Shown: one piece after another, positions 42,116-43,794 of the stretch
Position numbering within the stretch: position 1 is the first letter of the stretch
Layout of the letters: each line of letters begins with the position of its first letter
Source: Candidatus Gastranaerophilales bacterium
GTDB lineage: Bacteria; Cyanobacteriota; Vampirovibrionia; Gastranaerophilales; Gastranaerophilaceae
Length of the DNA stretch: 64,000 bases
Assembly (NCBI GenBank): GCA_944324915.1
Contig: CALUYD010000001.1
Span: 248,001 to 312,000, forward strand
Direction: 5' to 3'
The notes under the pieces: model-generated
Seen by the model: only the letters and a program-made list of their open reading frames with translations
Database searches by the model: none
What the model was told of the DNA's origin: nothing
Translations under genes and position numbers: made by a program

Positions 42116-43507
42116 ATGAAAGAATTTTTTAAAGATAACAAAGTAATTTTAATATTAATTTTAGTCTTGGGTTTAGCTTTAAGATTATGGAATTTAAATA
42201 AGCCCGAGGGTTTGTGGAATGATGAATATATCGCATATTCCATTTCAATGTTAAAATTTCCTTTTGATTTTTTTGAAGGAATTAGAACAAATTGTCATGC
42301 TCCGTTGCATTATTTTTATTTAAAATTATGGATGGCAATATTTAAAAATTCTGATTATATGCTTCGATTATCATCATTAGTGCCTAATTTATTGGGTTGT
42401 TTGGTGATGTATCATGTGGGCAAAAATTATCAAACTAAAATGCATTCTATTCAAATTGGGCTTTGTTGCGCTTTAATTTCTGCTATAAGCTCATTTTTAA
42501 TTTATTTTTCTCAAGAAGTTAGAATTTATTCAATGATTTTCTTGTTATCATCATTGATTTTGTTATATTCAATAAAAATGTATGAATATCCTTGCAAGAA
42601 AAATGCTTGGTGGCTTACATTTTGGTCTGTTTTATTAATTTTAGAACACACAATCGGTTTTGTATTTGTTTTGTTTAATATTTTTGGCTTAATGGCTTTT
42701 CGTCAAAAAAAGAAAAAAGAAACAGATTTATATATCCCAATTGTTGCGGGTTTAATTTTGTGTTTGCCTTTAATACCATTTTTATTTAGAATTTTTGCTC
42801 ATCCGACTTATTTTTCTCAATGGTGGGCACCATTTTCTTGGTCAAAGATATTTTTCTATTTTACCGATTTATTCTCACCGGTTTTAAGGAATATTACAAA
42901 TTCGCCAAGCAGTTTTTATAATCAAATAATTCATAATGATGTTATAAACATTGGTTTTATAATGTTTGCGATTGTTCCTTCTCTAATTTGTCTTGTTATG
43001 ATAATTCGCTCTAATATTGATGCTAAAAGAATAAATCGATATTTTTTAAGTGTTTTTCTAGCTTCGTTTTTGACAATTTTAATAGCTTCAATTGCAGGTA
43101 AAATTATATTTTTAACAAAATATTTAACAGAATTATATCCGATATTAATTTTAATGGCTTCAATAGGCTGGGCGCAATTAAACTCTAAAAATACAAAGGT
43201 TATGCTTGCTACTGTTTATGTTTTTATGAGTTTATTTTATATTATCGTTTCTCATACTTCAGCTATCAGATTAACAAGGCTTGAAGGTCAAAGATTGCCT
43301 GTTGTTGCAATGCAGGAAATGAATATTCAAAAAAACGACAAAATTTTATTTTTGTATTATCCAAAAACTCATTTTACAAAATACTATAACGATTCTGATT
43401 ATATAGCTTATTCAATTGATAAATATAATTTTGGCGAAGTTTTAAATAACGGAACAACTTATGACGCTTTTTTAGACGGTCATAATTTATATAGAATTTT
43501 TTTTTAG
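42116..43507 (+). CDS. Polytopic glycosyltransferase, ArnT/PMT (GT39/GT83) type; 3' end displaced by frameshift
   Basis: The 463-residue protein has about 11 membrane helices. Its first loop contains 'LRLWNLNKPEGLWNDEYIAY', with the Asp-Glu pair that is catalytic in ArnT/PMT polyprenyl-phosphate-sugar transferases, followed by 'NCHAPLHYFYLKLWM'. It would transfer a lipid-linked sugar to an envelope acceptor. The frame stops at 43505-43507, directly after a run of nine T (43497-43505). An open frame one register back continues from 43495 to 43794 with a soluble C-terminal domain. The true gene probably spans 42116-43794, about 560 residues. Confidence 0.85.
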   Translation: MKEFFKDNKVILILILVLGLALRLWNLNKPEGLWNDEYIAYSISMLKFPFDFFEGIRTNCHAPLHYFYLKLWMAIFKNSDYMLRLSSLVPNLLGCLVMYHVGKNYQTKMHSIQIGLCCALISAISSFLIYFSQEVRIYSMIFLLSSLILLYSIKMYEYPCKKNAWWLTFWSVLLILEHTIGFVFVLFNIFGLMAFRQKKKKETDLYIPIVAGLILCLPLIPFLFRIFAHPTYFSQWWAPFSWSKIFFYFTDLFSPVLRNITNSPSSFYNQIIHNDVINIGFIMFAIVPSLICLVMIIRSNIDAKRINRYFLSVFLASFLTILIASIAGKIIFLTKYLTELYPILILMASIGWAQLNSKNTKVMLATVYVFMSLFYIIVSHTSAIRLTRLEGQRLPVVAMQEMNIQKNDKILFLYYPKTHFTKYYNDSDYIAYSIDKYNFGEVLNNGTTYDAFLDGHNLYRIFF

Positions 43508-43794
43508 ATAGTAACAATAAAGTTATTTATTCTTGGCTTGATAAAAATATTCTAAATTCCATGAAAAAAGGTGAAAAACTTTTTGTGGTTGACTTAGAAA
43601 CCGTTAGCCTTTTTTCAAATACTGATATGAAAAGGATTTTAGGGGATGAAAATTTATATCAAGATACGCCCTTTTTATATCTAATTGCTTCTTATTCAAG
43701 AAATAAATCTCTTTATTGGGCTTATTCGAATTTAAAATATCAAGCTAAAATCAAAAAAGGCTCTTGGATGATTTATTCTTTTGAAAAAGTTTAG
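43508..43794 (+). pseudogene. Displaced C-terminal segment of the glycosyltransferase (frameshift)
   Basis: The frame that reads 'LDSNNKVIYSWLDKNIL' and then 'MKKGEKLFVVDLETVSLF' up to 'SWMIYSFEKV' is uninterrupted from 43495 to the TAG at 43792-43794, and no ribosome site precedes the internal ATG at 43561. One extra T in the T9 tract would fuse it to the upstream protein. It resembles the extracytoplasmic tail of GT39/GT83 proteins. It could be a sequencing slip, a phase-variable tract or transcriptional slippage. Confidence 0.65.

Follow-up and report, generated by a model that had tools for sequence, protein, structure and literature searches.

The window analysed here is a 64-kb stretch (C1:248001-312000) of the 1.8-Mb genome of a member of the Gastranaerophilales, with a G+C content of 30% as measured over 464 kb. 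It encodes a predicted membrane glycosyltransferase whose reading frame is broken at a run of nine T residues (T9), the sole A/T run of at least nine within the window; the entire genome has 15 places with at least nine T on either strand, two overlapping rows in a single T10 being counted once. The original prediction for this DNA held that a frame of 463 codons stops at a TAG directly after the T9, and that one extra T would generate a continuous protein of about 560 residues including the downstream segment. The sequence and the list of open reading frames agree on the former, and the latter is borne out by a predicted fused product of 559 residues, as against 463 for the short form, in which the tail frame re-reads one base and runs through 96 codons (43504-43791) before its stop (43792-43794) (Table 1).

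Table 1. Features of the interrupted glycosyltransferase gene, in positions of the window
Feature	Position	Strand	Basis
Short form: frame 0 ORF of 463 codons, for the predicted GT-C membrane core and the first part of the C-terminal domain	42116..43507	+	ORF list, orthologues, predicted structure
Putative T9 slippage tract, xTT TTT TTT T, beginning within a Val/Ile codon and followed by A	43497..43505	+	sequence; orthologue alignment
Heptamer T TTT TTT, usable by a -1 ribosomal frameshift (rival mechanism)	43498..43504	+	reading frame
Frame 0 stop TAG, overlapping the tract	43505..43507	+	sequence
Tail frame: 96 codons and stop, for the predicted remainder of the C-terminal alpha/beta domain	43504..43794	+	orthologues; purifying selection

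A separate gene re-started at the ATG at position 43561 is unlikely, because this codon is Met in only 17 of the 22 orthologues aligned, or in 16 of 20 if those with an interrupted frame are taken alone. An intrinsic terminator at the T9 was likewise rejected, given that the predicted folds of the 40 bases upstream of it are weak and variable (mean -4.35 kcal/mol, n=22). The neighboring genes vary among species, with ribH-like and sigma-like genes in the window and a clpP-like gene in others (names assigned by eye).

An AlphaFold2 model of a naturally continuous orthologue (L034; alignment of 42 rows; pLDDT 87.3, pTM 0.87) has helices up to residue 378, which we read as the membrane part, followed by a predicted alpha/beta domain at about residues 394-556. 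In fold comparisons the model groups with the GT-C enzymes STT3/PglB, ArnT and PMT, with a VIA Z of 26.6 against 8age_A (rmsd 5.2, 436 aligned) and of 24.9 against ArnT 5f15 (rmsd 4.6, 421 aligned), rows this close being near ties; though the predicted fold is alike, identity to the listed fold matches is only about 7-15%. Profile searches of the sequences of solved structures gave no match at E<=0.01, and NCBIfam gave none for the two proteins searched. The Pfam model PMT_2 scored 20.2 bits, below its gathering cut-off of 26.1, and was recovered in 36 of the 42 alignment members at E<=0.01 (best 8.4e-10). GT-C enzymes carry acidic residues in the first external loop, and D36 and E37 are invariant in 18 of 18 alignment rows. 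The model thus supports a glycosyltransferase of the GT-C fold, and this part of the original assignment stands, while the accompanying role in surface glycosylation is unproven. The slip site, at about residue 463, falls inside the modeled C-terminal alpha/beta domain, such that the short form would retain the membrane core and two of the five strands of this domain and, ending in mid-domain, may be unstable.

The gene was searched for in 58 genomes, 28 of which (the source genome included) belong to the source genus, and was recovered from 23 of these 28 as 22 near-complete orthologues (L001-L022) and one copy, in G014, that is divided between two contigs (L027/L067 and L078). A tract of exactly T9, a TAG or TAA directly behind it (10 of each among the 20 interrupted aligned orthologues) and an open tail of 95-98 codons are found in 21 of the 23 gene-holding genomes, and T10 with one continuous frame of 561 or 558 codons in two (G002 with L005/L049 and G015 with L020/L034). 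Within the alignment this amounts to T9 in 20 of 22 orthologues and T10 in two, the split copy (L078) also bearing T9; neither T8 nor T11 occurs at the site among the 23 genomes. The pattern expected if the original prediction were wrong, i.e. homologues stopping alike with an unconserved downstream frame, is not what is seen, the tail frame being open in all 21 interrupted genomes. Conversely, the continuous gene anticipated among relatives does exist, in two species of the genus and in nearly all distant relatives examined, with the fused product encoded in one frame by both T10 copies and by homologues in clades B and C. Five genus genomes (G007, G009, G022, G026 and G027; loci L023, L024, L025, L026 and L028) have a 55-69% identical gene that ends at about residue 385-390; the C-terminal domain is absent from these five copies, with no recognizable remnant in the flank examined, which suggests that the core alone may be viable. 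In a tree built by a quick method with SH-aLRT support only, the two T10 species lie apart, pointing to two changes to T10, and parsimony would make T9 ancestral in the clade. The species counts are not independent, as a single origin of T9 followed by two changes to T10 fits the tree.

Synonymous diversity across the 22 orthologues, taken in 9-codon windows, reaches its minimum at the tract, where it is 0.21 of the gene mean, the next-lowest separate region being the N-terminus at 0.47 (gapped columns dropped; when these are kept the minimum is 0.13, resting on about six codons). The triplets TTT TTT TTA are the sole run of at least three codons identical in all 22 orthologues, the T10 copies included and the interrupted ones read through. 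The codon preceding the Phe-Phe pair specifies Val or Ile in 22 of 22 clade A orthologues, whereas none of the 54 non-gapped rows from other clades shows V, I, L or F at that position, D, N, E and S being the most common there; this suggests that the length of nine, beyond the seven T's that a ribosome needs, is itself selected. When the 20 interrupted copies are compared in all 190 pairings, pN/pS averages 0.19 in the core and 0.51 in the tail, synonymous sites being close to saturation. For 23 of these pairs dS was usable (core <1.0, tail <1.2), and among them dN/dS ranges over 0.015-0.147 in the core and 0.07-0.60 in the tail, which points to purifying selection on the tail that is weaker than that on the core.

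The wider genome scan, covering the best 80 of 165 matches (79 loci), includes a sister clade of 15 loci (L051-L065; best segments 56-58% identical), 14 of which were placed in the tree, where they form one clade. Fourteen of the 15 (L051-L064) are continuous and carry CTT TTT TTT TAC, a T9 that lies in frame in the same gene and is placed upstream of the site used in the genus by about 36 alignment columns. This second T9 is the sister clade's sole run of at least three invariant codons and the minimum of its synonymous diversity (0.21, the next region having 0.63, with gapped columns dropped; 0.07 with these kept). Loss or gain of one T here would end the protein 4 or 8 codons past the Leu-Phe-Phe in 14 of 14 loci. 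By comparison, T9 is absent from the gene in the 10 loci of clade C (L069 has an A9), which show no comparable minimum, the lowest synonymous diversity being 0.65 (0.54 with gapped columns kept); and the gene has no run of at least nine in 31 more distant loci (L079-L109), some of which are cut by contig ends.

Several further features of the sister loci may be recorded. The remaining locus (L065:2501-3900) is interrupted at a T9 in the equivalent position, beyond which a frame of 128 codons continues the protein, as seen in a single assembly. In L051-L064 the suppression of synonymous change runs on for about nine codons past the in-frame T9, which could reflect the out-of-frame stops, an overlapping short frame, or a promoter-like element, TTTAC[GT]-N17-TATAAT, recognized by eye; the next gene, which is clpP-like, is convergent in 15 of 15 sister loci, and this tells against the promoter-like element. 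An extra in-frame A9 (encoding …KKND) lies upstream of the T9 in seven of the 15 copies (L051, L054, L057, L058, L060, L062 and L064).

Long runs of T or A are avoided in the coding sequence of the source genome. In 464 of its 1815 kb, against an expectation from 60 synonymous codon shuffles, we counted no T runs of nine or more (11.1 expected), six T8 (25.4) and 51 T7 (95.3), and likewise one A run of nine or more (69.5), 71 A8 (136.8) and 482 A7 (468.7); the ORFs used in these counts exclude stop codons, so that the glycosyltransferase tract itself entered as T8. In these 464 kb the depletion of T7 and of T8 holds for every frame, and T7 in the phase of the slippery heptamer is the least depleted of the phases (31 observed, 51.0 expected). 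A sister genome, sampled over 400 kb, has one T run of nine or more against 8.9 expected and no such A run against 37.3, with T7 near expectation (63 against 69.2). The same kind of run test has been applied to slippage before (PMC1088944). A deficit of UUUUUUU in each of the three frames is also described for Escherichia coli, with polymerase slippage or mutation suggested as its cause (PMC4066793). Mutation could be an alternative cause of the frame-independent avoidance of long runs seen here. A scan for frame breaks at 296 occurrences of runs of at least eight A/T (464 kb plus the T9 loci, with both strands counted and some loci overlapping) returned two sites, namely the glycosyltransferase T9 and C1:82149, and at the latter the alternative frame looks like chance.

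We consider that this gene is probably a case of programmed RNA polymerase slippage, by which one gene yields two useful products. RNA polymerase would slip on the T9 in a fraction of transcripts; the unslipped mRNA with U9 would specify a GT-C glycosyltransferase of 463 residues, terminating at the tract, and mRNA with one extra U the 559-residue enzyme with its C-terminal domain complete, the tract being maintained by selection for both products. The sister clade would show the opposite polarity, with the in-frame T9 elsewhere in the same domain making the long form the default and the short form the outcome of slippage. The sequences themselves establish the layout of the gene and its conservation, selection on both tail and tract, and the avoidance of such runs elsewhere; we infer from them that RNA polymerase is the slipping machine and that both proteins exist and are useful. 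The polymerase is favored over the ribosome, if indirectly, on account of the Val/Ile codon, the depletion of runs, the lack of a conserved downstream structure among the orthologues (see below), and the length of 9-10 of the other conserved tracts, which came from a search for runs of at least nine. The faster evolution of the tail than of the core counts against the two-form slippage reading, and the tail region is also the faster-evolving one in the sister clade (0.264 against 0.135). Of the mechanisms originally put forward, polymerase slippage is likely, going by tract conservation and run avoidance; the proposed switching of the enzyme is better described as two products at some ratio, while the frame break on which it was founded is real.

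It is possible, if rather unlikely, that slippage serves for rescue only, making up for a one-base deletion of long standing so that the long enzyme is still produced. Only the long form would then matter, and T9 would be locked in because losing the tract would mean losing the protein. All orthologue data of the window's clade fit this, T10 copies exist, and endosymbiont genes corrected by slippage have been described (PMC5009743). However, T10 is a single base away, yet T9 is the state in 21 of 23 genomes; and the in-frame T9 of the sister clade needs no rescue, yet it marks the lowest synonymous diversity and is followed by out-of-frame stops in all 14 loci.

We regard it as unlikely that the same long protein is made by -1 ribosomal frameshifting on the T TTT TTT heptamer by the frame 0 stop, even though the heptamer, in the same codon phase and with a stop directly after it, is present in 20 of 20 interrupted aligned orthologues. 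A stimulatory structure or a Shine-Dalgarno-like site is usual, if not universal, for such frameshifting, but no conserved stimulator was seen in the 22 orthologues: there is no conserved downstream RNA structure (mean z -0.80, n=22; the folds vary among species, and pseudoknots lie outside the model), one orthologue alone (L004) having a strongly folded downstream stretch (z -4.15), and no Shine-Dalgarno-like motif at the site except for one AGGA. The tract, moreover, is nine and not seven long, covering the Val/Ile codon at which other clades lack V, I, L or F. Also against the ribosome are the heptamer phase being the least depleted one for T7 and the frame-independent under-representation of UUUUUUU in E. 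coli (PMC4066793).

Phase variation, whereby the length of the DNA tract would change within populations and turn the enzyme on or off, was part of the original prediction and now appears highly improbable: long coding homopolymers are capable of such switching and both T9 and T10 are found among species, but the tract length is not scattered among relatives, and the sister clade has an in-frame T9 in 14 of 15 loci. An assembly error or a decaying pseudogene can practically be dismissed: the relatives are mostly metagenome assemblies, in which homopolymers can be miscounted, but the same T9 recurs across assemblies of several projects that name their contigs differently, T10 is reported in two, and the tail is both open and under purifying selection; the interrupted frame is real and no artefact.

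Programmed polymerase slippage, to which we return as the preferred reading, has precedents in other bacteria. The closest parallels are tssM1 of Citrobacter rodentium and tssM3 of Yersinia pseudotuberculosis, where the C-terminal part of a membrane protein hinges on slippage at a long A tract, with two forms per gene, and where two relatives have opposite default frames, slippage lengthening the product of one and shortening that of the other (PMC4256274). There the slippage, of about 15-25%, was shown by mass spectrometry, Western blots and GFP fusions, whereas the T9 described here is known from sequence alone and the tssM tracts are of A (11 A in tssM1); the authors found tssM3 as the sole case beyond tssM1, as against 21 species and a second site in 14 sister loci in the present gene (PMC4256274). 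In Thermus thermophilus dnaX, slippage likewise occurs on nine T and gives products of two lengths, but the gene encodes a DNA polymerase subunit and slippage yields the truncated product (PMC5009743; PMC1088944). Slippage in Shigella extends the products of spa13 and mxiE and truncates those of spa33 and mxiA, these being plasmid-borne secretion-system genes rather than glycosyltransferases (PMC5009743). A genome survey lists seven cases with conserved ORF organization and conserved 9-A tracts, of which only mapW, in Staphylococcus aureus strains, is not from a mobile element (PMC1088944). Among titles and the beginnings of abstracts in the open-access literature, we found no case of slippage in a glycosyltransferase. 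The same literature yielded nothing on slippage in Melainabacteria, only a termite single-cell genome paper for Gastranaerophilales together with frameshift, and, among the slippage matches listed, none on these bacteria by title; the main text of the GeneTack paper contains neither "glycosyltransferase" nor "glycosyl transferase" (PMC3711429). Thus, the mechanism is already known, and the present gene appears to be a new and widely conserved case of it, unusual in its conservation and setting. If the reading is true, a non-mobile enzyme gene with a genus-wide tract, joined by another in the sister clade, would constitute an unusually well-supported bacterial case, in which the comparison of T9 and T10 species makes it testable whether slippage is selected or merely tolerated. 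Automatic gene calling in such genomes will probably give a truncated glycosyltransferase and an orphan ORF.

Other conserved tracts occur in the lineage. The sole run of 10 A/T in the source genome is an A10 at C1:58098-58107, which lies in frame in a gene (L110:375-1898:-) for a protein of about 508 residues with no Pfam match at E<=0.01. Of 27 genus genomes, 22 carry exactly A10 (L110 and L235-L262 being among the loci), the others comprising one with an in-frame A9, three without a run of at least nine and one in which the stretch lies beyond the contig. In their matched parts, the other carriers share 43-78% identity with the source copy. The A10 falls in a poorly conserved linker, and a shift into either of the other frames meets a stop within 4-21 codons; in 14 sister-clade loci, some of them partial, the gene lacks any run of 10 A. 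In the sister clade, a TPR protein has GTT TTT TTT TAT, an in-frame T9, in 13 of 14 matches (L166:1106-3205; L167-L178, L180), the copy without it (L179) coming from the same genome as L065. Among 12 full-length TPR copies the codons AAA GTT TTT TTT TAT CTC AAC AAA are the sole run of at least four invariant codons in 706 columns, and the T9 is the minimum of synonymous diversity (0.07, the next region having 0.57); it was not found in 28 matches from the window's genus, many of which are paralogues or partial.

These tracts, namely the T9 in the GT-C enzyme, the A10 in the linker and the T9 in the TPR protein, stand out against the strong genome-wide avoidance of such runs, and they raise the tentative possibility that polymerase slippage giving two proteins per gene is lineage-wide in the Gastranaerophilales. 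Each clade would then have its own few tracts of exact length, with the site and the default frame movable and the two-form output constant. Slippage as a habit of the lineage is plausible, but the tracts in question came from a targeted rather than an unbiased scan. A DnaG-like primase (Pfam DNAG_N; L209-L231) was not counted among the strictly conserved tracts, its in-frame A9 being kept at one site in just 9 of 23 loci.
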